This document shows positions 10,863 through 54,400 of a DNA stretch of 64,000 nucleotides, piece by piece (position 1 is the stretch's first letter; each line of letters starts with the position of its first letter). The notes below the pieces were generated by a model. It had not been told where the DNA came from and made no database searches. It saw only the letters and a program-made list of their open reading frames with translations. The DNA is taken from contig CAXIWS010000864.1 in the NCBI GenBank assembly GCA_964036195.1, positions 1 to 64,000 of the forward strand, written 5' to 3'. The stretch is from Sphaerolaimus hirsutus (Eukaryota > Nematoda > Chromadorea > Monhysterida > Sphaerolaimidae). The position numbers were made by a program, and so were the translations under genes.

Positions 10863-11243
10863 TCAAGTGATTCCATCAGAATCCATCGTTACCCGCCAAG
10901 GTAACGTTTCAATGAGGCATTGCTTACAGCCAATAACTTGCTCTTATGTGATACTTTATGTATAGATGAATATTTATTTATTTATTATATATTTTTTTAT
11001 TTCGGCACTCAAGGTATCTTTTGGAGGGGGTTTTCCATTGGAAAACCCCTAAAAACCCCACATTTTCAAGTACACAATGTGGTTTCAACTACTTATTATT
11101 TCCTTTTTGCAACATGATGACATGATGACATCATGGATAAAGAATGTCCTTGTTGAAAATGAAGCAATGCACAGAAACGCCACAACAGAGTAAGTCAGTG
11201 TTGGAACACAATGACAACGGTTTCCATATTGTGTACTAGATAC

Positions 11244-11443
11244 TAGTGATGGAATGGCGCCATGGCGCTGGCGCCCTTTAATGGCACCATTGGCGCTTGG
11301 CACCCTTTCCTGTGGTGCGTTTTGGCGCCCGGCATATTTTTGAATAGTTATTTACGCAGTGTTTTTGAATACTGAACACACAGTATTTTTTAATGGCGCC
11401 ATGGCAATTGACGCCATTTTTCCTGGCGCTTTTGCCATCACTA
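11244..11443. mobile_element. hAT-like miniature transposon (family C), 200 bp
   Basis: Termini TAGTGATGG and CCATCACTA, with flanking 8-mers CTAGATAC (11236-11243) and CTAGCTAC (11444-11451) differing at one base. The interior has GGCGCCATGGCGC palindromes. The mirror copy is in the right arm at about 25280-25475. Confidence 0.8.
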
Positions 11444-11971
11444 CTAGCTACCTATCTGTAGCTAGCTACCTACCTGTCGTAGCTGTAGCTGTACGCCGTA
11501 CCGTAGCTGCACGCCGTAGCAGACCTGCACGCCGTACCCGACTGCACTGCGTTCGCCTGCATGACAAAAATATACCGAATTAGTAAATTTCACACATGAA
11601 ATGACATCAGGAAATCAAGATTAAACGTCTGCATGAATGTGCGTATAGTTTGTATTTTGCAGTTGACATTGTCAACTGATAAATGAAAGATGAAAGCGGT
11701 CACAGATGAAACTTTGTGTTTAAAGTGGATAGAAGTGCAAAACCCGCAAAATGTATGTTTCATGGTAGCATTGAAAAAACGTGCTATGTATACGTGAATC
11801 GGTTTTTACCCAGCCTATGAAGGTGAGCACCTGGTGCTTTCCTTCATAGGTTGCAACGTATATGTTGACGTTAATTAACGTTACTTAACGTGATTATTTG
11901 AAACGACAAAAACCGGATTTTGTCGTGAATTTAATTGTGATAATTAGTATCATTAAGTATTGTGATACTTA

Positions 11972-12241
11972 ATGAGCAACGTTAACATGTTACGTACCGA
12001 ATGCGCAGTTTTCCAGCCGGTACCGCAGCCGCACGCAAATGTATCCACGCACGCTGAAACGTTCACCTGCATTGAAATTTGCAAAAATTACAAAATAGTC
12101 AGACCACCAGGCATGTATGCGGAAATGTGTATGCCGATTTTGTATAATAAAGCCCCGTTTATTGATGTCTTCATGGTAACCATGATGGGCATGCGAAAAC
12201 ACATGAGAAATGGTTGCAATAAAAATGACACGCAACAGTGA
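11972..12241. CDS. Candidate coding segment, strand undecided
   Basis: Both strands are open for 80-89 codons here and in the mirror copy at 24497-24766. The forward frame starts MSNVNMLRTECAVF. It differs from the right-arm copy by three missense changes and no stop. The reverse strand has an acceptor-like ATTTCAATGCAG|GTG near 12070 and a donor-like TTCG|GTACGTAA near 11994, which would bound a short exon. I cannot decide between them, and the function is unknown. It lies just upstream of, and parallel to, the two-exon gene at 12304. Confidence 0.3.
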
Positions 12242-12303
12242 ATCTGTTTTGAACGTTGAATAGCATGTGTCTTATTCAGTTGAAAAGTAAGTTTTAAAAA
12301 ATA

Positions 12304-12974
12304 ATGTCAAGCCAACAGAGTTTGCTGATTGATGTTTTTGGCGATGGTAACTTACTGGCACAAGAAAGCGTTTTGTGCAACATTCCTGGTGCCACTCTCA
12401 GAGCATGTAAAATGCGCTGTAAAATGTCAAGTGTCATTCAAGTGGCTGAAGCGATGTAAAATGGCATGGGAAATATTGCATTGACGCCACTTTCAACAAA
12501 CAACACATTTACACTTTACTGTGCATTTTGCATGATCAGTGAGTCACGTCAACTGATCATACTGTCACCTACCGTTTCCGCATACTCAACCAGCAGAGAT
12601 TCAGAGATCAGGTATTCAACACAAACACATTTACAGTGGTGAGCAGTACTGATAGGTAAGTTTTAAAAGGTTTGAATAGTGTAATGTTTTTAATTTTGAT
12701 CCTATCAAGTGTTTCCAGACCATAAGGACACCAAAAACGTGACAAAAAAGTAGATCCCCCACACAGCACCTGTCAACTCGCCATGACGCCTTCTACTGCC
12801 ACCCTTTATGCCAAAATGCGAATGGTGTTGCCAATGCTGCAAATTGAATGTGGGTGTGCCAATCGTATTGGCACACAGATACAGCTGCCCCTCGGTGTGA
12901 CCACAGCAACGCGACTGGCTTCGATCAAACTGCAAGATGTTGGAAGGATGTTAATTTTGACTGTCCAGTTGTGA
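12304..12974 (+). CDS. Small two-exon gene, 110 residues, unknown function (left-arm copy)
   Basis: Exon 1 is 12304-12388 (starts MSSQQSLLIDVFGDGN) and exon 2 is 12727-12974 (stop TGA 12972-12974). The exon lengths 85 and 248 sum to 333, exactly 111 codons. The junction CCTG|GT ... CATAAG|GACACC joins the frame at phase 1, so both the ATG and the stop are supported by one continuous frame. Visible features are a basic patch after the junction, a Cys pair motif ECGCANR, and a hydrophobic C terminus with no clear membrane helix. The 338-bp intron has inverted ends of the TIR-intron type seen elsewhere in the window. An equally intact copy lies at 23764-24434. I do not recognise the family. It may be an accessory gene of the repeat unit. 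Confidence 0.6.
12389..12726 (+). mobile_element. TIR-bearing intron (introner-like), 338 bp
   Basis: The 5' end CTGGTGCCACTCTCAGAGC followed by ATGTAAAATG belongs to the intron-end family described at 16965-17170. The 3' end, read in reverse, is TTGGTGTCCTTATGGTCTGG, a more diverged version. The donor is CCTG|GTGCCA and the acceptor CATAAG|GACA. The right-arm intron 24012-24349 has exactly the same length. Confidence 0.6.
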
Positions 12975-13652
12975 TTTTCAACTGGTTAAACATGTCATGT
13001 TTACCTGTTTAGTTACCATTTTTACCATTTTACCATTTGGAAACTTTGTTCACGCATCTATTCACCTTGAAACAGTTATACAGGTAAAGGTGACATTTTG
13101 ACCAATGTTAGCAATGTGGATGTTAATTATGGGTATTTATGGGTAAAAGTTACCCTCAGTTAAACGTTGATAAGTGAATGGTTGCTTAATAAAGACATTT
13201 TTTTTTCAATCATTAACGCGAAACACATTTAAGACACTGAAAGAGAACAACAACTTTAATGATCACATTAAGCTGAAAGATAAGATGAAAACAATAAAGC
13301 TACAACATGAAAGCTACAACATGAGAGCTCCAACAACACAGCATGGGTACAAGGTCTAATTTAAACACATGAAAGCCATCAAATTCGGAATATGGTCACT
13401 AAAGTGTACGGTTCAAAGGAAAGATTTTTCGGGATCGTGACAGTTTTCTGGATGGGGATTGGTATTGTAAAATCTGTAAGTGTAACTGTAAAATTGTACA
13501 TCGTGAAATCTGTAAAATGTAACCCGTTTGAACCGTACTAAATTGGAAAGTTCTGAAATTTTGCTAAATTTTGCTAAAAAATTACGAAAAGTCCTAAAAT
13601 AATTCCTAAAATTTTCAAAAAAGTGGGAAAACTGAACATAAATATTAAAAAT
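12975..13652. other. No gene seen; 3' flank between two convergent genes
   Basis: AT-rich sequence between the stop of the plus-strand 110-residue gene and the stop of the minus-strand Merlin-like gene. It contains a direct repeat of GAAAGCTACAACATGA near 13309-13325 and a decayed fragment of the GGGATC element family around 13400-13545 (GGTTCAAAGGAAAG ... GTTTGAACCGTAC). Confidence 0.5.
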
Positions 13653-15764
13653 CTAAAATTTGATCTGGCGTTTCGCTTTTTGGGCAGTTTTCACACGTTG
13701 CGACTGCAGTTGACCGAGCGGGGAACGGGGATTCGATAACTGCAAATGTTCAGTGAAGTACATAAATATGAGCAGAAGAAATATAATTTTGTCACCTTTG
13801 GAGTGCTCCGTTGTTTCATCTTCTTTTCCGCCGGAGAATTTTGCGAATCGGGGGAACACGGAGAATCGCTGGAATCATCCAGCGTGATGACAGGGGGGGA
13901 CCTGTACGGGCTGTTGCATGGATCAGGTTCCACCTTCAAGTACGCAATCGTGCTGGCGGGGCTGCAAAAATTTTTTTTGATGAATTACTAATTGAAAAAT
14001 GATCATGAGTAAAACATGTAAAACATGTAATCATGTAAAACACACCTATTCTCGAAGTCGCTGTCATTCAGGCAAACGTTGATGGATTTTTCTGGCGTTG
14101 CATTCGCGCCAGAAACGCAAGTGGTCGACTGTGCCGCCGTCGCCGCTGCCACCGCCGCTGTCGCCATCGCCGTTAAACTGCGTAGTAGTCGACTCAAACT
14201 TGCAATAGTCAAATCCCAAAAAAGTTGTCAAACGTTATGAAACCTGGTTTTGGTCAACTGCAGAACAGCGGAACTGCTGCGCTGTACGGGCACAGGGACC
14301 GGCTGTACGGGCACAGGGACCGGCTGCACGTCATCTGCCCCCAATGCGTACGGTTCATGCTGCGTGCCAGCACCCTGAATTGCAAATTTGTAATAGTTTC
14401 ATTTGCAACAATTGATCATTACAATTGTTCAATGAACGAACATCTTCAAAAAAGTCGCCGTCGTTCTGTTGTGGCTGCAAATTTGGCATATCGCCAAATG
14501 TTGCCACAGCGGAATCCCTGCGCTGCACGGCACCAGCCGCCGCCGTGACCGCTTCGTGATGTGCGCCTACCGCCGCTGAACTGTCTGGTCGGCGGTGAAT
14601 GGCAGGCGACGCAGGCACAACGGACCCGCCAACCACCACACACTGTCCAGCGGGGGGACTGCCCTCCCTCTGCTGGGACGACTCCAAACCAACTTGCGCA
14701 GCCCTTTTTGCACTCCACTGCGCAGCCAACTGAGCATTTTTGGCGCGGCGCCGGGCAGCCAAAACAGCGGTCATACATTTTTTCCTTGGACAGTCACACA
14801 GCGTGTGGAAAGACATGTCAAATGTTAAATGTCATGTTATGTTATTCAATTTTACTGGAATTTTGACACTGTCATGACATTGCACATTTTACACGGCTTT
14901 TCACGCGCTCTGGGACTGGCACCTGATGCTCCATTTTGCGGCCATTGGAATGTGCTGTCTTCGCTGAGCAGCCAGTTCAGCAGCCAAAGCGGAACTGAAA
15001 GTACAATTTTGAATTGCATATTGTGAATGTAAAGTGAAATGTAAATGTGAAATGAAACCTCGTCCTGGCGCTGCACTGCGCGGCCTTGGTGCCTGCCGGT
15101 TGCGCGGGCACTGCAAAAGCGGTATCGCTCCGCTGCGTATTGTCCAATGGAGGAACGTAAACCTAAAAAGTTTGAAAGAAAATTGTTAAACTTAATAGTT
15201 AAACTGAAAGTTGGAAAGTAACTGAATAAGTAAGGAACTTACGTCCTCCCAGTCATCACAGTGGGCCATTTGCGTGTACGGGTCCAACTGTGGCATTTCG
15301 CTAAAACCTGTCAGTTCAGGCACAGTCGGCTCAGCAGACAGCTGTGGCATGCACGACAGCTGCGACGATAATGGCGGTGCCAATTGCCGCGCCGGTGCCA
15401 AGTGACGCGCCGGTGCCAACTGCGGCGCTGGTGCCAACTGCGGCGCCTGTGCCAACTGCTGCGCCGGTGCAAAGTGCCGCCCCAGTGCCAAGTGCCGCCC
15501 CAGTGCCAAGTGCGGCGCCGGTGCCAAGTGCGGCCCCGGTGCCAACTGCGGCGCCGGTGCCAACTGCGAACCCGCTGGCATCAATTGCACTTTCGATTGA
15601 AGCATGCCTAGCTTATTCTGCAATGATAAAGTAACCCAGTATGTATAAATGTAAGGAAAAGTGTATCTACCGAGATGTACTCACATGGTGACGCTTCACA
15701 TGCTCCTTGTTAGCGTCCTTCACACGCACAGCACTGGGCGCAGCCGCCGCCGCCGCCGCCGCCG

Positions 15765-15810
<46 letters not shown>

Positions 15811-18800
15811 TTGCTTTCTCCTTTAGGCATTCCCAGACCGTGTTAAGTGACATGTTAAATGTGAAATATGAGAACAAGTGTCAATAGTCATGTAAAGTGA
15901 CATTTCACATTTTACATGACATTTCACATTTTACGTGCCATTTCACATGGTCTGCGAGTACCACCTGGCATCGTTTCCAACAGCAATCAATTGCTCCACA
16001 TTCTGCCCTTCAATTTGAGTGGTGGTCATTAACGCCACGTCGCCATCCGTCACGACCATACGGCTGTCCTCCACATGCACGACAGTGTTGTCGGCTACAG
16101 CGCGCATGATCGGTGTCCATGATCTGGCGAGGACACCGGAAGGTGCCTGTACGTAAAGTGTAAACATGTGAAATGTAAACGTGCAAAATGTAAACATGCA
16201 AAATGTAAACATGTAAAACTGATCACATAACAAAATACTAACCAGTTTGCGCCGCGCATTGGTCATGCGGCAGCCTAACTTCACCGCGTCGATGACGCGC
16301 ACCTTCCTGCCGATTTTGTTGAAAGCCGTCACCGCCAACTTTACATCGACGGGTGTACTTTCAGGCAGCGCCGGCAACAACTGTGAAATGTAAAACAGGT
16401 TACCTAGTTATGAATGTTTATGATAGAAACTGAACAGAAAATAAAGACAAACTTGTGGTTCCTTCCACGGTTATCAAACCGCTGCCGAACCAAATCCAGA
16501 AAGCTGTAGAATGTGCACTGCCTGTGCACAGCGAAGCGCCATTCGAAAACCTTCAAAAGCCCGGTGAGCAGCGGGAAAACCATGTTGCCGGCGCCGTCAA
16601 ACTTTATTTTTTCGACTTTCATTCGGCGGTTTCGTATCAGGGGGCACTAGCACACAGTGCGAAATGACATGTAAAATGTAAAATGTCAGGCAAATAGTAC
16701 AGTGTAAATGTAAAAAGTGTGGCAAAGTTGCTTTTTACAATACGTTTGACACTTTGCTTCACATTTCACATTTTACATGTCATTTCGCACTGTGTGCTAG
16801 TGGCACCAGGTTGTTCTTGAGGGGCCGCCAGATCCCTCCACCGCGTTAGTATTCCAGTTGTCCTCCCGAACAAATTCCTCGAGTGGTTTATAACCACGTG
16901 AGAATACCCGTGTTTGCGCTCCAGGTTCATGTAACCTTTCCATGCGTCGGACACAATTACAGCCCTGCGGCACTCCCAGACCCTGTAAAGAGCTCTGTAA
17001 AATGTAAAAAAACATGCAAACTGTGTAAAGTTAACTAAAATGGCTGTAAAAATGACAGAGGTAAACATTTTTTGCACAGGCAGGTAATTTTAAAATACGG
17101 CACAGCCTTTTTACAGTTTGCATTGCTTTCAACATTTTACACTTATGTTTACAGGGTCTGGGACTGTCACCTGGGAGCCACATTTGTCTTTATAATTCCT
17201 ACCAACGTTGCCTCGTCCCTCCGTTCAGTGTAGAAGAGACGCACCTGTGCGTTTTACATGTTTCTACGTTTTGACAAACAATTGCGGTGACAATGAAGGT
17301 GTTAACTAACGTCTTGCACCACGCCCTCATTCACTTCTACCATGCCAAAGCACCACGGTCCGCTGACAATGCCGCCATAATTAGAACTTCTAGGCGGAAA
17401 TTTGTCCCCACCACACAGTCTGCCCTTGCCGTTCATATTTGGCTTCCGTTTCTCTTTTAAAATGCATTCATCGACCAGGTTGCACTCCTTAACCGTGTAA
17501 AGTTACCAGTAAAACGTCAAACGTTACATCACTGCATGACACTGCATGACGGTGCATGACGTTTGACATATTTACATGCCACTTTACATGGTTCAGAAGT
17601 GACACCTGCACATGACTGCCCAGCGTGCGGCCCATTAATTTACTTTCACTCATCGTAATGCGGGCCTGTTCGACAATCTGCGGGGGGTTAACATCCGTTT
17701 ACATAATCCATTGGTTCAACCTACGGTTCAAACGGGATCCCGATCCCGATCCCGAAACCCCAATCCTGATCCCGATCCCGATCCAAAAATCTCAAAAAAC
17801 CAATCCCGATCCCGATCCCAAAATCTCAAAAAACCAATCCCGATCCCGATCCCGATCCCAAAATCTCAAAAAACCAATCCCGATCCCGATCCCGATCCCA
17901 AAATCTCAAAAATCCAATCCCGATCCCGATCCCGAAACCCCAATCCCGATCCCGATCCCGAAATCTCAAAAAGTGAATCCCTATCCCGATCCCGAAAAGT
18001 CAATCCCGTTTGAACCCTAGTTCAACCGGTCCCGATCCCGGTCCCGATTCAGAAAAGTGAGTAGGTACCTTTGAACGGTACAATAAATACTGTACAGAAA
18101 TACTGATGAAAAATACAATTTCAAATGAAAGATGGATCATTTACCTGATTATTCATTGCCATCCAATCAGAAATGGTCTGATTGCTGTTTTTGTTGATTT
18201 GGCCCCGCTTTGACTCCATACATGCGAAGCTGTCGGCCAGAAAGTCGCGCCCCATGTTGACCGCATACCCATAAACAATGAGCATGACCTGCACATAAAA
18301 ATGTTTGTGTATATGGTACAAATAGTGATATGTGTGGTTTAATTGCAAATGTACCGAACCCTGCCGCACGCTTAACGCCCGTATGATCTTGCCATCTTTA
18401 CTTTCCCAACCAAAGTACGAATTTCTCGCCAAAGATCTCACACAACGGCATTTTGTACATTTGGTACACAATTGCGGTGCAGTACGCACATCCCACAGAA
18501 GGACACCAACGCAGCCGTCTTTTGTGCACGGCCCATAGCTGTAAAAACATTATGGTGTACATTATCAAGGACGTAGCCAGGGGGGGGGGGCGGGGGGGGC
18601 GGCCGCCCCCCCCCCTTCCCGGGCCGGACAAAAAAATGTGCCAGAAATGGCACTTCCAGAAAACGATTTTGTCGCAGTTTGTAAAAATTTTGCGCGCAAG
18701 CGCGCATTTTATCGACACATAGCATATATTTACAATTGACCAGTATCCGCGGCCTCAAACCCAGTAAAAAAAACCAAAATTTCTGTCCGTGTCGCAGTAT

Positions 18801-21798: not shown

Positions 21799-21927
21799 CC
21801 AGAGCGCGTGAAAAGCCGTGTAAAATGTGCAATGTCATGACAGTGTCAAAATTCCAGTAAAATTGAATAACATAACATGACATTTAACATTTGACATGTC
21901 TTTCCACACGCTGTGTGACTGTCCAAG

Positions 21928-23085
21928 GAAAAAATGTATGACCGCTGTTTTGGCTGCCCGGCGCCGCGCCAAAAATGATCAGTTGGCTGCGCAGTGGAGT
22001 GCAAAAAGGGCTGCGCAAGTTGGTTTGGAGTCGTCCCAGCAGAGGGAGGGCAGTCCCCCCGCTGGACAGTGTGTGGTGGTTGGCGGGTCCGTTGTGCCTG
22101 CGTCGCCTGCCATTCACCGCCGACCAGACAGTTCAGCGGCGGTAGGCGCACATCACGAAGCGGTCACGGCGGCGGCTGGTGCCGTGCAGCGCAGGGATTC
22201 CGCTGTGGCAACATTTGGCGATATGCCAAATTTGCAGCCACAACAGAACGACGGCGACTTTTTTGAAGATGTTCGTTCATTGAACAATTGTAATGATCAA
22301 TTGTTGCAAATGAAACTATTACAAATTTGCAATTCAGGGTGCTGGCACGCAGCACGAACCGTACGCATTGGGGGCAGATGACGTGCAGCCGGTCCCTGTG
22401 CCCATGCAGCCGGTCCCTGTGCCCGTACAGCCGGTCCCTGTGCCCGTACAGCGCAGCAGTTCCGCTGTTCTGCAGTTGACCAAAACCAGGTTTCATAAAG
22501 TTTGACAACTTTTTTGGGATTTGACTATTGCAAGTTTGAGTCGACTACTACGCAGTTTTACGAGGGCGGCGACGGCGACAGCGGCGGTGGCAGCGGCGAC
22601 GGCGGCACAGTCGACCACTTGCGTTTCTGGCGCGAATGCAACGCCAGAAAAATCCATCAACGTTTGCCTGAATGACAGCGACTTCGAGAATAGGTGTGTT
22701 TTACATGATTACATGTTTTACATGTTTTACTCATGATCATTTTTCAATTAGTAATTCATCAAAAAAATTTTTGCAGCCCCGCCAGCACGATTGCGTACTT
22801 GAAGGTGGAACCTGATCCATGCAACAGCCCGTACAGGTCCCCCCCTGTCATCACGCTGGATGATTCCAGCGATTCTCCGTGTTCCCCCGATTCGCAAAAT
22901 TCTCCGGCGGAAAAGAAGATGAAACAACGGAGCACTCCAAAGGTGACAAAATTATATTTCTTCTGCTCATATTTATGTACTTCACTGAACATTTGCAGTT
23001 ATCGAATCCCCGTTCCCCGCTCGGTCAACTGCAGTCGCAACGTGTGAAAACTGCCCAAAAAGCGAAACGCCAGATCAAATTTTAG
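21928..23085 (+). pseudogene. 3' exons of the Merlin-like gene, right-arm copy (5' part missing at gap)
   Basis: Five exons, 21928-22270, 22338-22489, 22556-22693, 22777-22942 and 22999-23085, correspond to the last five exons of the minus-strand gene and end at the same TAG. Lengths are 343, 152, 138, 166 and 87 against 343, 131, 132, 166 and 87 on the left. The differences are +21 (one extra VPVPMQ-type heptapeptide) and +6, both in frame. No stop or frameshift is visible. Upstream sequence is cut by the gap inside the preceding intron, so this could be part of an intact second gene rather than a pseudogene. Confidence 0.6.
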
Positions 23086-23763
23086 ATTTTTAATATTTAT
23101 GTTCAGTTTTCCCACTTTTTTGATAATTTTAGGAATTATTTTAGGACTTTTCGGAATTTTTTAGCAAAATTTAGCAAAATTTCAGAACTTTCCAATTTAG
23201 TACGGTTCAAACGGGTTACATTTTACAGATTTCACGATGTACAATTTTACAGTTACACTTACAGATTTTACAATACCAATCCCCATCCAGAAAACTGTCA
23301 CGATCCCGAAAAATCTTTCCTTTGAACCGTACACTTTAGTGACCATATTCCGAATTTGATGGCTTTCATGTGTTTAAATTAGACCTTGTACCCATGCTGT
23401 GTTGTTGTAGCTTTCATGTTGTAGCTTTCATGTTGTAGCTTTATTGTTTTCATCTTATCTTTCAGCTTAATGTGATCATTAAAGTTGTTGTTCTCTTTCA
23501 GTGTCTTAAATGTGTTTCGCGTTAATGATTGAACAAAAAATGTCTTTATTAAGCAACCATTCACTTATCAACGTTTAACTGAGGGTAACTTTTACCCATA
23601 AATACCCATAATTAACATCCACATTGCTAACATTGGTCAAAATGTCACCTTTACCTGTATAACTGTTTCAAGGTGAATAGATGCGTGAACAAAGTTTCCA
23701 AATGGTAAAATGGTAAAAATGGTAACTAAACAGGTAAACATGACATGTTTAACCAGTTGAAAA
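23086..23763. other. No gene seen; mirror of 12975-13652
   Basis: The intergenic spacer between two convergent genes in the right arm. It carries one more copy of the GTAGCTTTCATGTT unit than the left arm (about 23406-23440). Confidence 0.5.
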
Positions 23764-24434
23764 TCACAACTGGACAGTCAAAATTAACATCCTTCCAACA
23801 TCTTGCAGTTTGATCGAAGCCAGTCGCGTTGCTGTGGTCACACCGAGGGGCAGCTGTATCTGTGTGCCAATACGATTGGCACACCCACATTCAATTTGCA
23901 GCATTGGCAACACCATTCGCATTTTGGCATAAAGGGTGGCAGTAGAAGGCGTCATGGCGAGTTGACAGGTGCTGTGTGGGGTATCTACTTTTTTGTCACG
24001 TTTTTGGTGTCCTTACGGTCGGGAAACACTTGATAGGATCAAAATTAAAAACATTACACTATTCAAACCTTTTAAAACTTACCTATCAGTACTGCTCACC
24101 ACTGTAAATGTGTTTGTGTTGAATACCTGATCTCTGAATCTCTGCTGGTTGAGTATGCGGAAACGGTAGGTGACAGTATGATCAGTTGACGTGACTCACT
24201 GATCATGCAAAATGCACAGTAAAGTGTAAATGTGTTGTTTGTTGAAAGTGGCGTCAATGCAATATTTCCCATGCCATTTTACATCGCTTCAGCCACTTGA
24301 ATGACACTTGACATTTTACAGCGCATTTTACATGCTCTGAGAGTGGCACCAGGAATGTTGCACAAAACGCTTTCTTGTGCCAGTAAGTTACCATTGCCAA
24401 AAACATCAATCAGCAAACTCTGTTGGCTTGACAT
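23764..24434 (-). CDS. Small two-exon gene, 110 residues (right-arm copy)
   Basis: Exon 1 is 24350-24434 and exon 2 is 23764-24011, again 85 plus 248 nucleotides with a 338-bp intron (24012-24349). The start ATG, junction phase and stop match the copy at 12304-12974. At least one residue differs (GDG becomes GNG near 24393). Both copies are intact, which suggests either recent duplication or continued constraint. Function unknown. Confidence 0.6.
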
Positions 24435-26699
24435 TATTTTTTAAAACTTACTTTTCAACTGAATAAGACACATGCTATTCAACGTTCAAAACAGATTCAC
24501 TGTTGCGTGTCATTTTTATTGCAACCATTTCTCATGTGTTTTCGCATGCCCATCACGGTTACCATGAAGACATCAATAAACGGGGCTTTATTATACAAAA
24601 TCGGCATACACATTTCCGCATACATGCCTAGTGGTCTGACTATTTTGTAATTTTTGCAAATTTCAATGCAGGTGAACGTTTCAGCGTGCGTGGATACATT
24701 TGCGTGCGGCTGCGGTACCGGCTGGAAAACTGCGCATTCGGTACGTAACATGTAAACGTTGCTCATTAAGTATCCTTATCACAATTAAATTCACGACAAA
24801 ATCCGGTTTTTGTCGTTTCAAATAGTCACGTTAAGTAACGTTAATTAACGTCAACGTATACGTTGCAACCTATGAAGGAAAGCACCAGGTGCTAACCTTC
24901 ATAGGCTGGGTAAAAACCGATTCACGTATACATAGCACGTTTTTTCAATGCTACCATGAAACATACATTTTGCGGGTTTTGCACTTCTATCCACTTTAAA
25001 CACAAAGTTTCATCTGTGACCGCTTTCATCTTTCATTTATCAGTTGACAATGTCAACTGCAAAATACAAACTATACGCACATTCATGCAGACGTTTAATC
25101 TTGATTTCCTGATGTCATTTCATGTGTGAAATTTACTAATTCGGTTTATTTTTGTCATGCAGGCGAACGCAGTGCAGTCGGGTACGGCGTGCAGGTCTGC
25201 TACGGCGTGCAGCTACGGTACGGCGTACAGCTACAGCTACGACAGGTAGGTAGCTAGCTACAGATAGGTAGCTAGTAGTGATGGCAAAAGCGCCAGGAAA
25301 AATGGCGTCAATTGCCATGGCGCCATTAAAAAATACTGTGTGTTCAGTATTCAAAAACACTGCGTAAATAACTATTCAAAAATATGCCGGGCGCCAAAAG
25401 GCACCACAGGAAAGGGTGCCAAGCGCCAATGGTGCCATTAAAGGGCGCCAGCGCCATGGCGCCATTCCATCACTAGTATCTAGTACACAATATGGAAACC
25501 GTTGTCATTGTGTTCCAACAGTGACTTACTCTGTTGTGGCGTTTCTGTGCATTGCTTCATTTTCAACAAGGACATTCTTTATCCATGATGTCATCATGTC
25601 ATCATGTTGCAAAAAGGAAATAATAAGTAGTTGAAACCACATTGTGTACTTGAAAATGTGTGGTTTTTAGGGGTTTTCCAATGGAAAACCCCCTCCAAAA
25701 GATACCTTGAGTGCCGAAATAAAAAAATATATAATAAATAAATAAATATTCATATATACATAAAGTATCACATAAGAGCAAGTTATTGGCTGTAAGCAAT
25801 GCCTCATTGAAACGTTACCTTGGCGGGTAACGATGGTAAAATGCGCCAGACTTTTGGCGCCAAGCGACAAAACTGCCATGGCACTTTTCTGACCCCGGCG
25901 CCAAGCGTCAATGGCGCCCCAGCAAAATGGCGTTAAGCGCCAAAAGCGCCATGGCGCTTTTCTGGACCTTAGCGCCAAGCGCCAAAGGAGATAATATGAA
26001 GCGCCAATGGCACCACAGCATTCTAGCGCCAAGCGCCAAACCCAAACCCCAAACACAAACCCATATCAATATCAATATCCCCAAACCCATATCAATTATG
26101 TTTCATGCATGAAAGGACCATTGTCAAAAATCTGTTGAAGGTGATTCTGTCAACAATTTGTTATCCATTCATACTTGTATGAATGGTTTGCCATACCCAT
26201 ACACGGTTTTTACCCAAACGTTACAAGGTAAACACCTTTTCAAGGTATTTACCTTGTAACATTTGGGTAAAAACAGGTACACTTTACATGACTATTCAAC
26301 AGCACTTTTTACCTCGTGCAGCTCGGCTACGGCGTGCAGCTCGGCTACGGCGTGCAGCTCGGGTACGGCGTGCACCTCGGGTCGGGTACAGCACTTGGTT
26401 AGTCATTTTAGAGGTTTTCGTACTTTATGTATTAAAACCCGTATCAATTATGTATCACACATGAAAGGACCATTGTCAAGAATCTGTTGAAGGTGATTCT
26501 TCTTGGTCAATTAGTTGTTACCCATTCATACCTGTATGAATGGGTTTGCATACCCCTAAGCGGTTTTTACTAGTGATGTAAAAAGCGCCAGACTTTTGGC
26601 GCCAAGCGCCAAGCGCGCCAGCAAAATAGCGCCAAGCGCCATGGCGCTTTTACATCACTAGTTTTTACACAACTGTTACAAGGTATACACCTTTTCAAG

Positions 26700-33731: not shown

Positions 33732-35031
33732 TGTGATGAAGCCACCGAAGTCAGCGTCTTCTACCACCGAATCCGGCTGCTTCAAGACCGTAGTGAGAAA
33801 CGGCCTTTAGAGTGGTTGATTTCCCGTTGTTGCCGAACGTCCACTTGTCGACAGCCAAGTTGAGTTTATTTCGTAGTTGTGTGTTGAAAAAAAGGGGTTC
33901 GAATTGTTTCAGGTACTTTATTTCGATCAGATACAGCGTGTTACAAAAGCGCAAAGTCTAGCGAGCTTCCTAATCGAAGTTTCTATCGCTAGCTTATTTT
34001 CGTTCAGTAGCTTGGGGTCCGCAGACTGAAGTAAAAACTTCCAAAGTAGCTAAGACACGGAAATCACGTATAGAAAAACAGTTACAGTAATTTTCTAATA
34101 CAAATGCACAAATAAGTCACAAATGTAACAATAAGACACATTTTACCGAAACAGTTGGCTTATTTTACGCGTGCATACATTCAAATAATTATGGTAAAGA
34201 AATACCAGGTACAAATTGGGTTAATAGAAAACTATTAATCTTACGAGGTGCGAAGTCGGCAAACTTGGCCGATTTACTAATTTGCTTCAATTTGTCAGAA
34301 AACATTGACGCACATTGGAACTAATAAAATAGGGCTTGAAACTGTAAATAGTAGTGTAAATGTTCCTAATGACATAAATAGAGCAGGGTATATTCGATAT
34401 AATAATAATAATCACTCCTGGAAACGTATATTTCATAATTGGCAAATTGGGACTTATTCGAGGTAAATGGGTATATTAATTGAGCAGGGTCTATAATATA
34501 TTCGGCTTGAGCAGGGTATTAAATATTAAGTAAATATAAATATAAGTTGTGAGCAGGGTTACAATAATTATGCCTACGCGAAGGGCTTCGTAAATACATA
34601 CAGTGAATGCTAGTTGCATACAGGGCACTATTTCTCCATTAGGACGCTGGCCTAGATAATTACGCAGCACGTAAATATTTACAAGATTTGACTTTTGTAA
34701 ACTGCAAGTAAACTAGGTAAATGTATATATAATAATAATCAGAAAATTACGGCGAGTTGAATGAGCCTAATTTCATATTAATACACCTAATAATAACATA
34801 TTTGACCTTTTGACCTAAACATTTCACATAAACCTATCAATAACCTATAAAATGCTTTCCTAATTGAATATTCTCCATGGATACGTAATAAGTATAGGAA
34901 TTACAATTTGCGTGGTAAATAAATATAGTGCATGAAAAGTAAATTAGTGCAAATAAATAAATGTGCGAATATGAGCCTAATTATCAATTCTCTGTATTTC
35001 TTTATCCATCCATTTTGCCACGGTCAGCACA
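33732..35031 (-). mobile_element. 3' LTR of BEL/Pao element, 1300 bp
   Basis: Plus-strand reading TGTGATGAAG...GTCAGCACA. Same length as the copy at 45005-46304, and identical wherever I compared them. The 5-bp target duplication CTTAT lies at 33727-33731 and 46305-46309. No convincing polypurine tract was seen just inside it (35032-35054). Confidence 0.95.
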
Positions 35032-35073
35032 CTCCGGGCGGAAGAGTTGCTGCACCCCGTTGTTGCAGCAACG
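35032..35073. other. Spacer between BEL/Pao ORF stop and 3' LTR
   Basis: Forty-two bases where a polypurine tract is expected. On the coding strand it reads as pyrimidine and GC-rich, with only short purine runs (CCCGGAG next to the LTR). Confidence 0.6.
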
Positions 35074-38000
35074 TCACATGCTGGTGGTGGTGGGCGCCAA
35101 AGTGATGAGTGGCGTTTCCACAGTCGCCTCGGTGGTGAACGTGGTCGTGCGCGAAGTCGTGGGTGTGCGTGAAGTTGCAGGTCCAGTTGCTGGTGATGCC
35201 AACGCCGACCTAGCCTGATGATGAAGCAGGTAGTTGCCCGTGTCGCTTCCTGCGCGTTCGCGTGTGGTGAATTTGCGGATATCAGGCATGTGAACATTGT
35301 CTCTGTTCCTGGCTCTGACTTGTCCCTCATCAGCTGAACTTTCATCTGGCTGAACGTATGCTGATAGTGACTTTGCCATTCTGTCCTCTGTTTCTGCTCT
35401 CCTGGCAAATCTGACGGACTGTGTTGAGTTGGATCTGGCTCTCCTTTTGATTGCTGGTCTCAACTCTGTCTTGCGCACTTTTCTCTGTGGATAATTGGTC
35501 TCTTTCTGAGTTGACTTCTTGATAGTGTATCTGACGGCTCTGAAGCATAGCCATATGCATTTGAATGGACACACTATGCATTTCCATATGCATGTGTATA
35601 CGCATGGTGGAATCACTGGTTTCCCTGTGGCAATTCTCCAATTGTACCACAGGTATCCTGCAGCAACAATTCCAGCTACCAGGATTGTGATTCCCAGCAG
35701 TATTGCGATTGTGTTGATGATCACTTGAAAGGGTCCTTTCAGCATTCCTCCCATAAAGTTGGTGTACCCTTTTGATACTCCAGATATATAATGACCATAT
35801 GCTTTGCCGATTCCTGCTGCTGTCTGTCCAATTCCAGCTCCAATGCCTTCTATTGAATTTCTGATCACTCTGGGATCCAATGACATGTCTGCTGTGTAAT
35901 CAATCAACTGATTCTGCACATGCTCTAAATTCTGTAGTCTCTGAATCTGGCCTCTGACATCCATGAAATTGGTCGCTCTGTTGACAATGTTGGTGAACAG
36001 GTGAGGCGCATCAAACGTGAAGGCCTGCCACTGTCCTTTCCATGTCATTTCAATTGGCGTCTCTGTGACATGCACCATTCCATGTGCGGACTTCCACTGT
36101 CCATGTTCATTTCTGTACAGGTGCGGTGTGGTGTGGCTGCAGTCCTCTTCTGGTGATTTCTCCACCAAGTCTCTGCTGCCTGGGCTTTTGAACCACAAGG
36201 GCCCGCCTTTGTCCAATCTCATTGGTGTGTACTTGTAACATGTCTCTCCCACCTTTCCTGTCTGATAAATTATGTATGGCTGCACTTCCTTGCATTCCCA
36301 AAACATAATTGCTTCTCCAGCCCATTCTGCATGAACATCCTGTCTTCCCAGCATGGCTCGAATCCCCAGTGTTGGATCGATGCGGAAAAGCTGAGTCAAC
36401 ATGTCCAGTTGGTTCTTGCGAAGTTGACATAATTGATGCCATACAATCGCAAATTGTGCCTGAGTCATCTTTCTGACCACATGTTGCAGGAACTGAAACT
36501 TGGAGTTTCTGTCGTCCAATCTGGCATACAATGTTCCACTGATTGTCGATTCTCTTGCCTCCACTATCTTTCCTGGCATTGCCCATTCCACAGGCACATC
36601 TTCTCTTCTGTCAAACTGGATGAATACACCTCCTTGATCGGTATAGTATGTGTCTCCCGGAACACATTCTGAACCAATTGGTCTCTTCGTCTTGTTGCTG
36701 TGGGAGTATGCTGCTTGCAATTTTGATACAATAATTGTCTGGCCAGATATCTCTGATTTGAATCTGCCAATTCTCTCATATGCACATTGATGTTTGAAAT
36801 TCTCCGTATCCCACACTGTGATTCCATAATTGTGGTCTCTGCAATGTCCCATCATGGCTCTGCACTGGCTGAAATCTTGTAAGTCGCTGATTACAGTCTT
36901 TCCATCGAGTGAAGCCACGGTTCCTTCTTCCATGTAGAAGTTACTGACGACATTCTCTTTGTCATGGCAACACCATGAATATTCCACTTTCAAGGTTTGA
37001 TTGGTTGTCCACACTCTGGGCTCCATTTCCACCAAAGGTGTTCCTCTGAACATCTTGTGAATTCTTGCATAGTTACAGGCTACCACGCCAACTTGCTGGT
37101 ATTTCTCGAAATTGCCTGTAATGCCTTTCGCTCCCCAGAAACTGGTGTGTGTGATGATTTCTTTGATTCTGATGTAGCATCTGTATGCTTTCTCTTTCTG
37201 TGGAATCTGTCTCTGTGCGTAAAGTGTAACTTTCATTGCCTTGACAAAATTCCTTGGTGGGATATGGCACTGCACTTCTTCAGGAACTGTAAGCGCATGT
37301 CCATGCCTTCCACTGGTGCAAATCTGATACTTCTGGCTTTGTGAATTGATCACCTGTTCCACAGGATGATCCTTGATTGCGTCTTTGAATCTCTCATAAG
37401 TCTGCATTTCTCTGACAGATTTTGGTGGCCATTCTGAAGGCAAAGGCGGCAATCCATGATGCGCTGCCAATGATGGTGGCCTTACTGTCGAGGTTTCTAG
37501 AATGTATGTTCTAGAAAATACTTCGCTGTAAGCCTTGCCGGCTTCTCTCAGGGTTGCTGACTCTGACATGCCTGTCAGCATCAATATCATACACAGCATT
37601 CCAATCACCAGACTGCTGGTGGTTGCTGTGGCCTTCCCTGTTGCACTTCTCAGGACTCTATCCGATGCTGAGTTCCTCTGAGCAGGGTTTTGTACAGAGT
37701 CTCTGTTCGAGCTCTGATTTCTGACATGTTTCTGGACAATTGCTGGGTCCAGTAAATCCACTTTGACTGTCACTGCTGTCTCTGGGATATCCATTGTCTT
37801 TGAATTGATTTCCAGCGGATACAATTGATTGAGTGGTCTGCTGACCACATTTCTGTTGGCAGTTCTGACTTTTGCTGAGCGAATCTGTCCATCTTTGCTG
37901 GGCTCTAACTGCTCGATGCGACCCATCTTCCATGCACCTCTGGGCATGTTCTCTTCATAAATCAGCACAACTTCATTCACTTTGGGTTCTTGAGTCGCTG

Positions 38001-41000
38001 TCAATCTGCCATGTTTGTGTGTCACCTGAGTTCTTTCCCTCAAGCTTGGGATATACTCTTGATGCCACAAGTCCCAGAACTTATCCAAAGTTTGCTGGGT
38101 TGTCTCCCAATATTTCTGCAGTTTCGCTGCGTTATCCATTCTGGGCACAAATTCTCCATCTTTGTCTGCGTCAAACTGTGGTGCTCCAATCTGACCCTCC
38201 CCTGTCAGGAAATCTTTTGGCGTCAGCACTCTGAGGCTCTTTACATCACCATAGATGTAAGAGATTGGCCTGCTGTTGATCACTGCTTCAACTTCTGGCA
38301 GAAGTGTCAACAATTCTTGCAGGGTTAACATTCTGTGCCCCACAGCTGCCTTGAAATGTTTCTTGGTGATACCCACCATTCTCTCATAGACTCCTCCCTG
38401 CCATGGTGCCATAGGAGTAGTCATGTTCCATTGGATTTGTTGCTGTGAGCAGTAAGTCTGTACTGCTCCACTTTTGACCATTTCTGACCATTCCTTTCCA
38501 ATATTAATGGCCTTGTCCGTGCTTGTGCTGAGCACTTTCTCTGTCAATTTGAATTGCGTCGCATTGTCTGAAATAACTGCTTCAGGCTTTCCACGCCTAG
38601 CGATGAATCTCCTGACTGCATTCAGGAATTCCTGTGCTGTCATGTCCAGCACACTTTCCAGGTGAACTGCACGTGTCACCATACATGTGAACAAACAGAT
38701 CCACATTTTCCTGTGATCTTTGTCCACTTTGTACCAAACTGGTCCCAAATAATCCAAGCCCGTGTACTGGAACGGTCTGGCTCTCTGAACTCTGGTTTCT
38801 GGCAAATCTGGCATTGGTGGAAGCTGGTACGGCTTTGCTCCCAATTTCTTACAGGTTGGGCAGGTTCTCGTCACATTGTAAATCACCCGTCTGCCCTGTG
38901 TAATCCAGTACTTTTGTCTGATCGCTGCCAATGTATGTTGCACTCCTGCGTGCATCAACTTCTCATGCTGGTCTCTGACGATCAGCTGAGTCACTGTAGC
39001 CGTTGCTGGCAACAGTATGAGTGGTACTGTGACCTCCTGTGGGTCTGTATGCTCCATTCTGCTGTGGCACTTCAGGATTCCATCCTGATGCATCTGCACA
39101 TTGAGCCATTTGATCAACTGCTGGTCTGCAGCTGTTTTCTTGCTATTCTGGCTACCTCTGCTGTGGCCTGTTGCCAGAATCTCTGCCACTCCTTTGTAAT
39201 GATTCTGTTGCGTCACTTTGATCCAGTATTTCAATGCAATTTCTCTTTCTTCAATGCTGATAATTCCCTGTGGTTTCATTGTTCCACAGATACTTTCCAT
39301 GATTTCTGACAATCCATTCTGACTGTCATTTTTGCTGCGTTTTTTGTGCATCTGTCGCACAAATCTCATCACGTATACTGTTGCATCCAGTAATTTCGTC
39401 AGTGATGAGAATCTCTGAATCTCAATTCCCAATGGGTTGCTTTGCTTGCTTTCATCAGCTTGCACACTGCTGGCATCTGGGTCACTGACCACTTGCTGTG
39501 TGGCGCCCAGGTAAATTGGACTGGCTTTTGGGGACTTGAGTTCTTCTTTCTTGATTTCTGCCATTACTTTTGGCGTGACTGGCTCCACTTTCGGCTCTGG
39601 CCACTCTCCAGTCATTAACCATTCTGGCCCCTTCCACCACAGGTTACTGCCTTCCAACTCTGACATATTCATGCCTCTTGTGGCCATGTCAGCTGGGTTT
39701 TCCAGTCCTGCGATGTGTCTGATGTGCATGTTCTCTGTCTCACTCTGAATTTTCCTGATTTCATCCAATCTGTTCTTGACAAAACATGCCAGTGGCTTCG
39801 CTGTTGTCAGCCACTTCAGACAACAGGTTGAATCTGACCATACAACTGTTTGACTGAATTTGACGTCCTTGAGCTCCTTGTGAATGAATTTCGACATTCT
39901 GCTGCCGATCAACATTGCTAACAATTCCAGCCGTGGAATTGTCACTTCTGGTTTCTTTGGAGCGAGTCTCAATCTGGAGTACAGCAGGCTTGACGTGCCG
40001 CTGTCATTTTCTGTTTTCTGGCATATGTATGCCGCTGCGCTGTATGCCATTGCTGAGGCATCGACGAAAATGTGCAGTTGTGCATCTGCACCACTCTGAT
40101 AATTCAAATTTCTGTTGAACTTGATCTGTCCAACTTTGAGCAATTCTGTCTCTAATTGCTGCCAAATTGCTGTCTGTTCCTCAGACAGGGGATTATCCCA
40201 CTCTTTGGCACTTGGTCCTGAATGCCATAACGTTTGCAAAAATCTCTTTGCTGACAGTAGGACAGGACTGACGAGTCCCATTGGATCAAAACATCCCGCA
40301 GTCACCTTTGCAACTGTCCTTTTCGTGGGAAGTTTGATTTTCTGGTCAGTTTCTGATAATTGCGATTGCTGGACTGTCTTTGGCGTTTTCAGCCACATCT
40401 GGTCGCTCTCTGTGTCCCATTTCATTCCTAGGACTGTTGTGACAATTTCCTTGGCCACATCTGACTCTGCCAATTGCCAAGTAAAGCTCTTATTGTTGCT
40501 GTTCCATTCTCTTAGATTCATCTGTGCCTCTGTGAACAGCACTTTGGATTCCTGGTACAATTCGATTGCTTTCTGCTCTGTGTCCACACTGAGGATCAAA
40601 TTATCCACATACAGATTTTCATCGATCAATTTTGCATTTTCTGTGCCAGCTTGATTCAGGTGGTATCTGACTGTCAGCGCCAGCAGCGCTGGACTGCAGA
40701 TTATACCAAATGGCACTCTGGCAAATCTGTAAATCTGAATGTTGTCTTCCATGGATGGTTTCGTGGGATCCTTGTACCACAGAAATCTTGTCACGTCTCT
40801 GTCACTGTCCTGCAGACTGATCTGCAGAAACGCTTTCTCTATGTCTGCGACCAGTGCAGTTCCATACAATCGGAATCGCATCAGCATCCCTACCAGCTGT
40901 GGTAGTATGACTGGACCGCGGTACATGCATTCATTCAAGCTTGGCATGCCTGGCGGTTTTGCTGAGGCATCATATACCTCTCTGACCTTTGTGGTAGTTT

Positions 41001-44986: not shown

Positions 44987-45004
44987 ACCCTGCTCGCTGC
45001 GCCA
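44987..45004 (-). promoter_or_regulatory. Primer-binding site, tRNA-Ser(UGA)
   Basis: The plus strand ACCCTGCTCGCTGCGCCA matches the 3' end of animal tRNA-Ser(UGA) including CCA. The element strand therefore begins TGGCGCAGCG directly after the 5' LTR, an 18-base complementary primer site. Confidence 0.85.
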
Positions 45005-46304: not shown

Positions 46305-46309
46305 CTTAT

Positions 46310-47583: not shown

Positions 47584-48202
47584 CTAACTATCTTGATCGT
47601 GCAATAATTTTTTGACACAGGTGGAAATTAGTGTGTCAATTTGCGATGGTGTGAGTGTCAGTCCTAAGTGTTCCATGAATCTTTTTGGAACATAAATATT
47701 CACTTGGGTCTGTTGCACATCCTCTGCAACCACCGTTTTGAAAATCTGAAAATTCCCCCCACATACCGCAGATGACACAAGGACGACCGATGTGATGAAG
47801 AACGAGCGAACAAACCTCTATCTGCACGGCCATGCCATTATGCTCCAGCTGTATTTTGCCCGTGTCGGGCAGGATAGTGGATTGGATTGTGGCCTGGGGG
47901 TGGTCCCAAATCCTATAAAATGTCAAATAAAGTGTCAAAATTCATGTAAAATATCATGTAAAATATTACATTTCATGATTTTTGCCAATAAAACAGGTAA
48001 ACTTTCATGAAAAGTGACATTTTCATGACCTTTTACATGACTTTTGACACTTTGTTCCACGTTTTACAGGGTTTGGGACTGTGACCAGGCTATAAACAGC
48101 TGTTTTGAGAGGCTGTTCATGGAAAGTGAGAGGTTGTGATTCCTCATCTTTATGTAGTTGGGATTTGGATTTTTTGTTAATGTACAATTTCAGTGATGTC
48201 AT
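47584..48202 (-). CDS. Three-exon gene, 118 residues, unknown function
   Basis: Exons 48086-48202 (ATG 48200-48202, MTSLKLYINKK), 47816-47893 and 47584-47745 total 357 nucleotides, exactly 119 codons. All three junctions are phase 0. The first intron is a TIR-bearing introner-like element. The product is a small, mostly soluble protein with an amphipathic C-terminal half (VPKRFMEHLGLTLTPSQIDTL). I do not recognise a family. An upstream non-coding or coding exon is possible because an acceptor-like CACCAG|G lies near 48221. Confidence 0.55.
47894..48085 (-). mobile_element. TIR-bearing intron (introner-like), 192 bp
   Basis: Ends CTGGTCACAGTCCCAAACC and CCTGGGGGTGGTCCCAAATC continue into CTRTAAAA and AAAGTGTCAAAA (about 40 bases of imperfect inverted match). 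Donor AGCCTG|GTCAC and acceptor CCCCCAG|GCC at the outer edges, phase 0 on both sides. Confidence 0.85.
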
Positions 48203-51422: not shown

Positions 51423-54400
51423 TCACAATTGCGCTCTTTCTGGGTCATTGGCCACATTTCTATATCCTTTCACATATATTTTATATCCAAAAAACATGCC
51501 AATGGTGAGGACCAGGGGTGAGTCCCAGGTCCTGTAAAGTGTGAAGTAAAGTGTGAAATGTAAAGTCAAATGCAAAGTCTATGTTTATCAAAATAAAAAT
51601 GATGTTTTTTATTGCTGAACTTTGCATGATGACATTTTACACTTTTCTTTACATATTACAGGGCTTGAGACTGTTACCAGGGTGCTGCAGCCAAATAGAA
51701 GGATAAAACCAAGCATAATCATTTGGTTCTGAAAAGTTGAAGTGCAAGATTATGTTTTATTTTTAGATGTTTTTTACATTTACCAAATTACTTTGTGCAA
51801 ATGCGCGATTTTGCCATCCAGTTCCACACAAATAGTATTTTCGAATGTGACCATTTTCTCTTCAAAACTTTGTCTGATTGTGTTTTCTTTCATACCATGG
51901 GACATTTTTTCAGTGACCTTTGACATGCCCAGTGGGTTTTCAGTGACTTTTGACATGTCCAGTGGGTTTTCAGTGACTTTTGACATGTCCTGTGGGTTTT
52001 CAGTGACTTTTGACATGTCCAACAGGTTTTCAGTGACGTTTGAGATGCCCTGTGGTTTTTCTAAAGAGGTTTTTGTCCCCATATCATTCATCATTTTCAG
52101 TGAAGGCAGTTTGATGCTTTCTGTTTGGTGCTGTGTTTTGGTCAATGTGCTAGGTATCACTGTGGAAGTTATAGATACTGCATTCATTGTGGGCTTTTCT
52201 GTCACACTTGTTAAATATTGCACAATGCCATCCATTTTGTTTCTTATTTTTTCAAATTCATTTGCCCACAATTTGTCGCATGTGCATTCCAGCTGTGTTT
52301 TGAAAGCAACATTTTTTGTGGGAAAAATAAATAAATGTGAAATGTGTAGACCTTTGCCATTGTGGTTTTTAGTTCCAAAAAGCCATCACACATGGATGTA
52401 AATGTACATTGTACTGTGTGATTCACATATTTAATGTTTTCATTCATAGAAATCTGCAAATGTTCAATGCTATGTTTGTAGATGGTGCTTTCATACAAAG
52501 TTTAAATAAAAAAATACCATGCTGTTTTGGACATTCCTATAATTCTCTGTCAAGTGAGATGTTATTGGATTGATGTGTTTTTCAAAGATCCTTTCAATTT
52601 TATCCAAATATGTCTGCATTTTGTTTTCCAATGTCTGAATTTTGTTTTCCAGTCTCTCATAGTACATACCATGGTCCTATAAATTAATAAAATTAAAATA
52701 GGGATCTCATTACATTGTATTTATAAAAAAATATATACATACCAAGGTTGCAGCCACTGTTGGAGAAGTGCCAATATTGTTTTGCACCTGCAACTTTTCC
52801 ACAATGTGCACAGCATGTTTTTCCATCATGGTTTCAAGTTTGTTTTCAATGTTAGATTCCATTGAATTAACATTTTTCAAAATGTTAGCATCACTGCTTA
52901 TCAATTTTGTCAGCTTTTCCACAATGTGCACAGCATGCTTTTCCATCATGGTTTCAAGTTTGTTTACAATGCTAGATTCCATTGAATTAATGCTTTTCAA
53001 AATGTTAGCATCATTGTCTATCAATTTTGCCACTTTTTCATTGCCACTTATGCATTTATTTGAAATCTGGGGACCACTTTCACATGTGATAAAATGAAAA
53101 TCAAAAAGTAAACGTAAGATGAAAACATATATAAATGGTCAAAAAGTTTTTTTATTTGCCTTTTGACCATTTATATATGTTTTCATCTTACATTTACTTT
53201 TTGATTTTCATTTTATCACATGTGAAAGTGACACCTGCTCAACTGTACCCAAAAGCTGCTTAGAGATGTGGTCACTGTTTTGATTGGTGCTGGTGCAATT
53301 TGAATTTTTTTCCAGCAATTTTATGCTGCTTTCCATCTTTAACAGAATGTTGCTTTCAAACTGCTTTAGTTTTTCATGTGTTTTGACACTCTCCCCATCA
53401 AGTAGTGTGGAAATCTGTTTGTCTAAGTGGCATTTATCTGCTTTTTCAATAATAGACATGTCAAAATTCTTGAGTTCATCCAGTTTTTTCATTTGCTCAA
53501 CATGTTGAGTGACCATTTGTTTTTGTTGTGTTGAAATGGCACTTTGTATTTTTTCCATACCTTCACATGTGTGTACCTACGATTGACCAAAACACATACC
53601 ATTGCAGTGAAAATCCACAATCTAAAAACTAAATTAAAATAAACAAACTGCTTTAGACATTGTCACAGTGTCTCCTGGCATTGTCACATAATATTCCATG
53701 TCATATTGGATTGTTGGTGTTGTTCTTCTCAGTGGGGTGGTTGTGCTGCCAGGTGGGCCGGTGGTGCTGTCAGTTGAGTCGATTGTGCTAGCAGGTGGGG
53801 GTACAGTGCTAGCAGGTGTTGATGTTGGCCAGGTGTCCAGTTTGAACGGCAGGTGTGTGGAGGGTTTTTCGGGGTTGTCGGTTTTGCATTCTATCAGAGT
53901 GTTCGGTCCAATGCTGGAAATATGCGGTCTATTTCGAGGAAATACGGTAGGTAGGTGAAAAATAAAAACCCTGGGGCTTATTTCTAGGAAATACGGCAGG
54001 TAGGTGAAAATTAAAAACCCTGGGGCTTATTTCAAGGAAATACGGTAGGTAGGTGAAAATTAAAAACCCTGGGGCTTATTTCGAGGAAATACGGTAGGTA
54101 GGTGAAAATTAAAAACCCTGGGGCTTATTTCGAGGAAATACGGTAGGTAGGTGAAAAATAAAAAACCCTGGGGCTTATTTCGAGGAAATACGGTAGGTAG
54201 GTGAAAATTAAAAACCCTGGGGCTTATTTCGAGGAAATACGGTAGGTAGGTGAAAATTAAAAACCCTGGGGCTTATTTCGAGGAAATACGGTAGGTAGGT
54301 GAAAAATAAAAACCCTGGGGCTTATTTCGAGGAAATACGGTAGGTAGGTGAAAATTAAAAACCCTGGGGCTTATTTCGAGGAAATACGGTAGGTAGGTGA

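Follow-up and report, generated by a model that had tools for sequence, protein, structure and literature searches.

Palindromic elements next to CWG trinucleotides, some of them within two gene models: a candidate introner-like transposon family

Introners with TIRs and TSDs are already described, with 548 families in 175 of 3,325 genomes, copepods included (PMC9860276, in the part of the survey drawn on here). NuwaI transposons make CWG duplications and have TIRs that usually begin with GGG; in the consulted part of their description they are recorded from animals only (PMC4482050). The literature coupling introners with Harbinger consists, in the excerpts at hand, of a fungal study of intron gain and loss. 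Paired-end introns with unusual borders are reported from diplonemids (PMC12621601, in part).

Here we describe nine hairpin elements of 130-206 bp in a window of 64,000 nucleotides (the whole stretch of DNA that was analysed). One complete and one partial extra copy lie in an inverted duplication (Table 1). The elements are palindromes with flanking repeats and unequal tips. Five of them sit inside two gene models, and removing these restores the reading. Judging from the sequence, we lean somewhat towards an introner-like role, that is, a non-autonomous palindromic transposon family at CWG sites that may be able to act as introns. It is the best single reading because the GT end lies on the sense side and the elements are positioned in reading frames.

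Table 1. Elements, gene models and ordinary introns in the window. Slash and full stop set off the flanking trinucleotides.
Feature	Positions	Strand	Sequence or basis
Hairpin element	12389..12555	+	CTG/GTGCCA ... GTCAA.CTG; left end 31.1 bits without training, fold, right end
Hairpin element	14785..14922	-	CAG/GTGCCA ... TGTCC.AAG
Hairpin element	15821..15964	-	CAG/GTGGTA ... GCCTA.AAG
Hairpin element, in transposase reading	16638..16806	-	CTG/GTGCCA ... GCCCC.CTG
Hairpin element, in transposase reading; example of the earlier note	16965..17170	-	CAG/GTGACA ... TGCCG.CAG
Hairpin element, in transposase reading; the first catalytic D follows directly	17476..17605	-	CAG/GTGTCA ... GCAAC.CTG
Hairpin element	47894..48085	-	CTG/GTCACA ... 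ACCCC.CAG
Hairpin element in gene 2, within predicted membrane helix	51513..51677	-	CTG/GTAACA ... CACCC.CTG
Hairpin element in gene 2	53067..53234	-	CAG/GTGTCA ... GTCCC.CAG; best palindrome, poorest match to family ends
Identical duplicate of 12389..12555, within inverted duplication	24183..24349	-	same 167 bp
Partial copy of 14785..14922	21799..21925	+	interrupted by assembly gap 21599-21798
Gene 1 part, IS1595/ISXO2-like transposase reading	16470..17700	-	PF12762 match, tblastn, frames
Gene 1 ordinary short intron	17245..17310	-	GTTAGT...ACAG, without inverted ends; 66 bp
Gene 2 model, coiled-coil-like protein, membrane helix at C terminus	51439..53780	-	532 codons open to stop
Gene 2 ordinary intron	53577..53648	-	GTTTGT...TAG
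Gene 2 ordinary intron	52677..52742	-	GTATGT...TAG
Gene 2 ordinary intron	52293..52517	-	borders frame-chosen
Gene 2 ordinary intron	51729..51791	-	GTAATT...CAG

The eight minus-strand elements share one layout: C(A/T)G, then GT and an end near GTGNCAGTCCCAGACCCTGTAAA, with the mirrored end opposite. An earlier note on this DNA had listed nine segments with inverted ends after C(A/T)G and GT. Eight of them hold. The ninth, 12389-12726, was drawn too long: its palindrome closes at 12555, with CTG on both sides, and the duplicate of the corrected element is 24183-24349 rather than the proposed mirror 24012-24349. The end consensus given in that note, with up to three mismatches, matches 4 places in the window, where 0.01 are expected. 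A repeat finder also detects inverted arms in the cluster at 14.8-17.1 kb.

We trained an end matrix (a 26-bp profile) on 16 ends and scored every element after removing it from the training. Seven of the eight elements reach 14.4-34.5 bits at both ends; the best place in the window outside the elements reaches 15.3 bits, scored with the full matrix. The ends of 53067-53234 are weak (10.3 and 6.8 bits), and this element is linked to the family mainly through its palindrome and its first nucleotides. The left end at 12386 was outside the training set and has 31.1 bits. Scanning the window with the matrix reveals no further pair of strong ends. At the lowest threshold a paired-end search yields 23 pairs, 11 of them the elements and duplicate copies; most of the other 12 are the same ends recombined or places beside the N run. 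The same search in four shuffles gives 4, 0, 0 and 1 pairs. A cruder search, for GT...AG segments whose ends are inverted, is uninformative, because its 16 pairs are at the level of five shuffles (6-13) and include just two elements. In viral contigs the end consensus was found 0 and 0 times; a shorter pattern gave 86 stretches, with two weak end pairs that we take as chance. The window holds nine similar copies whose likeness extends up to both borders, as in introners (strong leave-one-out ends in 7 of 8). It also holds the TIR and/or TSD signatures found in some described families, as palindromes and as CWG repeats that are exact in five of nine.

All nine elements fold into a long hairpin, leaving 0-6 nucleotides unpaired at the 5' end. 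The two arms of one element resemble each other (mean likeness 0.80, 8 comparisons) more than arms of different elements do (mean 0.67, 112 comparisons that are not independent; rank test p 7e-6). The ranges overlap, and 4 of 8 within-element values fall below the largest between-element value of 0.77. The arms match best in 53067 (0.98) and 16638 (0.91). Their tips are nonetheless unequal (left GTG, right GGG), and since they differ despite the best arms, the inequality may stem from the source element.

The left flank is CAG in five elements and CTG in four. On the right, from 14785 through 53067 and lastly 12389, we read AAG, AAG, CTG, CAG, CTG, CAG, CTG, CAG and CTG. The two trinucleotides are identical in 5/9 elements and differ by one base in 4/9, after the register on the right was chosen by eye. 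A CWG flank, which a duplication of the NuwaI kind would leave, is present on the left in 9/9, on the right in 7/9 and identically on both sides in 5/9. Four of the nine right tips start with GGG. Together with the neighbouring BEL/Pao retroelement, the CWG repeats and the GGG tips fit a non-autonomous PHIS/NuwaI-like element, and from these we infer PHIS/NuwaI as the transposase class. Neither a PHIS DDE transposase nor a Myb/SANT protein was noticed in the stretches of the window that were scanned.

The sequence supports two gene models around the elements, where the earlier note had spoken of five gene copies. Gene 1 reads as a transposase when 17476-17605, 16965-17170, 16638-16806 and the intron 17245-17310 are removed and two frameshifts of one base each, both between 16965 and 16806, are bridged with X. 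Residues 58-164 of this spliced, frame-joined reading match PF12762 (DDE_Tnp_IS1595) with 39.7 bits at a cut-off of 27; the only junctions within the match are that of 16965 and that of the ordinary intron. Pfam finds no family in the three plain frames of 14.3-19.3 kb. A tblastn search of the reading against plasmids (IS1595) gives 41 records. Residues 3-201 of 207 are covered in 23 of the 30 rows listed, and the identity is 26.5-27.9% among the matches listed. A protein search with the spliced transposase gave 79 candidates, none at E 0.001, and a PDB sequence search gave none. Three elements lie in the transposase reading, where the earlier note had counted two.

Four bacterial proteins align across the junctions of gene 1. 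The 16965 junction is inside an ungapped stretch. The 17476 junction (VQ/VDEC) aligns at the catalytic D, with a 16-column gap that starts two residues earlier. After the 16638 junction there are about 10 extra residues. At 14995-16450, ordinary gene 1 introns without inverted ends (for example 16147-16242) share TTTACATTTTGCATG-like words with the hairpin elements; judged by these words, they could be decayed older copies.

The reading of gene 2 requires the removal of four ordinary introns, with borders chosen to keep the frame, and of two hairpin elements, around both of which the frame remains open. A protein search found no homologue of gene 2 among 3928 candidates. In the plain frames of 46.3-54.7 kb, Pfam gives one match, below cut-off. 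The repeats within gene 2 give no sign of purifying selection (pN 0.143, pS 0.092). Satellite arrays adjoin the gene at 53930-54609 (49-bp units, about 14 copies) and 50540-51134 (99-bp units, 6 copies).

The main and serious rival to the introner-like reading starts from such features. Plain palindromic MITEs, never spliced, may occupy CWG sites both within an old copy of the transposase and elsewhere. GT at one tip would then be a mere family feature, and the interrupted genes would be dead or mis-modelled. The two frameshifts in gene 1 fit this explanation, as do the missing homologue of gene 2 and the lack of a sign of purifying selection in its repeats. The open reading of 532 codons in gene 2 argues against it. 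On the assumption that element 51513 began with identical arms and that gene 2 has decayed freely ever since, the expected number of stops is about 6.5 and the probability of none is 0.001. For smaller arm divergences of 0.05, 0.10 and 0.15 the probability of none becomes 0.28, 0.09 and 0.03. All in all we consider unspliced MITEs less likely than the introner-like reading.

Further evidence for unspliced MITEs comes from the putative donors. At positions +3 to +6 (RAGT) the nine elements have 11/36 matches, which is the chance level (11.25 expected); seven ordinary donors from the same genes have 20/28. Such weak donors suit MITEs that are not spliced. The GT itself is less simple to read. 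T stands at position 2 in 9/9 left tips and 2/9 right tips (p 0.002). Since GT served to choose and orient the elements, this pattern is in part circular, and to that extent it too suits unspliced MITEs. With orientation left free, the probability that none of nine elements would be without T at both tips is 0.23.

In five elements, three in the transposase and two in gene 2, the coding strand was judged independently of GT. All 5/5 have the GT end towards 5' in the sense direction, for which chance orientation gives 1 in 32, and this speaks against unspliced MITEs. T at position 2 occurs in 5/5 of their left and 1/5 of their right tips (p 0.048). Around the eight minus-strand elements, sense frames are also more open than around control CWG/GT sites (p 0.029 for means, 0.007 for logs, with the retroelement and the elements excluded from the controls), in a test whose elements are not independent, as five of the eight are clustered close together. 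Antisense frames are no more open than controls (p 0.66). An initial test whose controls included the retroelement reached no significance (p 0.33). The earlier note held that these are introns that are TIR transposons. The presence of inverted-repeat elements in genes is supported, and a role as introns is plausible, given the sense-side GT in 5/5.

The 3' ends are divided. AG is present at the precise end in 5/9 elements (AAG, AAG, CAG, CAG, CAG), and CTG in 4/9 (16638, 17476, 51513 and 12389). This corrects the earlier note, which had placed several acceptors at the mirrored end. Five of nine is the rate that random choice between CAG and CTG targets would give; AG is not enriched at the precise end, a further point for unspliced MITEs. 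In 16638 the frame is preserved by an AG 9 nt inside the 3' end; 17476 has two such AGs, 9 and 12 nt from the end. In 51513 the sole AG nearby is 19 nt inside and puts the reading out of frame. When 51513-51677 is removed precisely, the highest hydropathy over 21 residues is 2.29; left unspliced it is 1.96, and use of that inner AG gives 1.68.

Removal might be guided by the hairpin and independent of AG, with the stem joining the borders and the cut made at the CWG repeats. This would account for the CTG-ended copies, whose precise excision yields the expected readings, including the membrane helix at 51513, and it agrees with the long hairpins of all nine elements and their few unpaired 5' nucleotides. 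Paired-end introns with unusual borders are described, in the sections of the sources used, from Amoebophrya (PMC7789003) and euglenids (PMC4770533). Against this stands that every palindromic MITE would fold likewise, that GT is retained as in spliceosomal introns, and that the same genes contain ordinary GT-AG introns. The pairing register of euglenids, CAG/CTG at +4 to +6 and -8 to -6, is also absent: none of the nine donors has CAG at +4 to +6. CAG lies one position past that register in 4/9 left ends. We hold hairpin-guided removal to be improbable. In an animal it would mean a structure-guided intron class beyond the protist groups known for such introns, and to that we give equally little credence.

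Restoration of the frame does not show splicing, because the frame returns automatically once an insertion and one target copy are taken out. Excision could also act on DNA, programmed or driven by a transposase, and would precisely re-create junctions at direct repeats. A ciliate is reported, in the part of the study used here, to eliminate DNA derived from MITEs (PMC9942856). The ordinary introns and the nearby BEL/Pao retroelement, which suggests an animal, speak against excision from DNA, no excised copy was encountered, and we regard this reading as very improbable.

The BEL/Pao retroelement at 33732-46306 looks complete. Its open frame of 2911 aa (35074-43809, minus strand) ends in a Monjiviricetes/gB-like fusion glycoprotein domain. 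It is flanked by 1302-bp repeats; these are 100% identical, so the insertion is probably very recent. BEL/Pao elements with chuvirus-type glycoproteins are known from arthropods (PMC7642597, PMC10084718, both in part). A protein search with the RT region gave 827 matches. Among the 120 listed, identity is 38-48% and there is no close relative; those listed with an organism name are from animals, bar a few bacterial MAGs.

The inverted duplication consists of 10883-14913 and 21799-25836, which are 98% identical, and its inner end abuts a run of 200 N. It probably represents two haplotypes or a scaffolding artefact, and the 27 substitutions between its copies are uninformative on selection. A plus-strand open frame of 513 codons at 60163-61701 has no Pfam match above cut-off. 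Pfam finds nothing in the plain frames of 56.7-63.3 kb and only matches below cut-off in further pieces. Rfam at gathering threshold and ARAGORN each give 0 matches.

For the introner-like reading we propose the following course. Copies of a non-autonomous palindromic DNA transposon of PHIS/NuwaI type would insert at CWG and duplicate it. The left tip would place GT immediately next to the duplicated CWG. The second CWG would follow the right tip, which is often GGG and reads as C-rich sequence in the sense direction. In an exon, a sense-direction insertion at CAG would produce CAG/GT...CAG and so provide both splice sites, and splicing would regain the original exon. Copies at CTG sites would need an inner AG or would splice poorly. 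The copies would thereby behave as introners. We infer both the splicing of the elements and the creation of introns by their insertion.

If the elements are spliced, their tips differ exactly where a donor and a pyrimidine-rich acceptor are required, and the remaining palindrome is symmetric. This would be a direct view of a transposon fitted to become an intron. It would further connect introners, in what is probably an animal, with a named class of target site (CWG, PHIS/NuwaI). The 4/9 copies without AG bear on what the hairpin contributes to removal.

The comparison with known systems is made with the cited papers as far as their consulted parts describe them. In the introner elements of Amoebophrya, too, inverted repeats pair the ends, the borders carry short direct repeats, and the border dinucleotides vary. 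They differ in their host and in that no family-specific inverted repeat was detected in them, whereas the ends of the hairpin elements share a consensus (PMC7789003). The nonconventional introns of euglenids likewise have a stem that joins the ends and weakly conserved borders; their CAG/CTG pairing position is unlike that of the hairpin elements, whose host is probably an animal (PMC4770533). Larvacean AG/AC introns (PMC13326754) were set aside, because the hairpin elements have GT.

The earlier note considered the family possibly new. Introners with TIRs and TSDs are on record (PMC9860276), so that what we provisionally call new is this family, not the phenomenon. The described TIR/TSD introners are, like the hairpin elements, short non-autonomous inverted-repeat elements in genes that duplicate target bases. 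The hairpin elements are known from the sequence of one window and their splicing is putative; their CWG target, the unequal GT and GGG tips and a palindrome of nearly full length set them apart (PMC9860276). In the introners of Chrysochromulina sp., which are without TIRs, one splice site comes from the element and the other from the duplicated target, and the hairpin elements would match this arrangement (PMC9860276). With their flanking CWG repeats and GGG right tips (4/9), the hairpin elements resemble NuwaI/PHIS transposons, which make a 5'-CWG-3' duplication and have TIRs that often start with GGG; unlike NuwaI/PHIS, the hairpin elements are short palindromes, and their left tip is GT where NuwaI has GG (PMC4482050).
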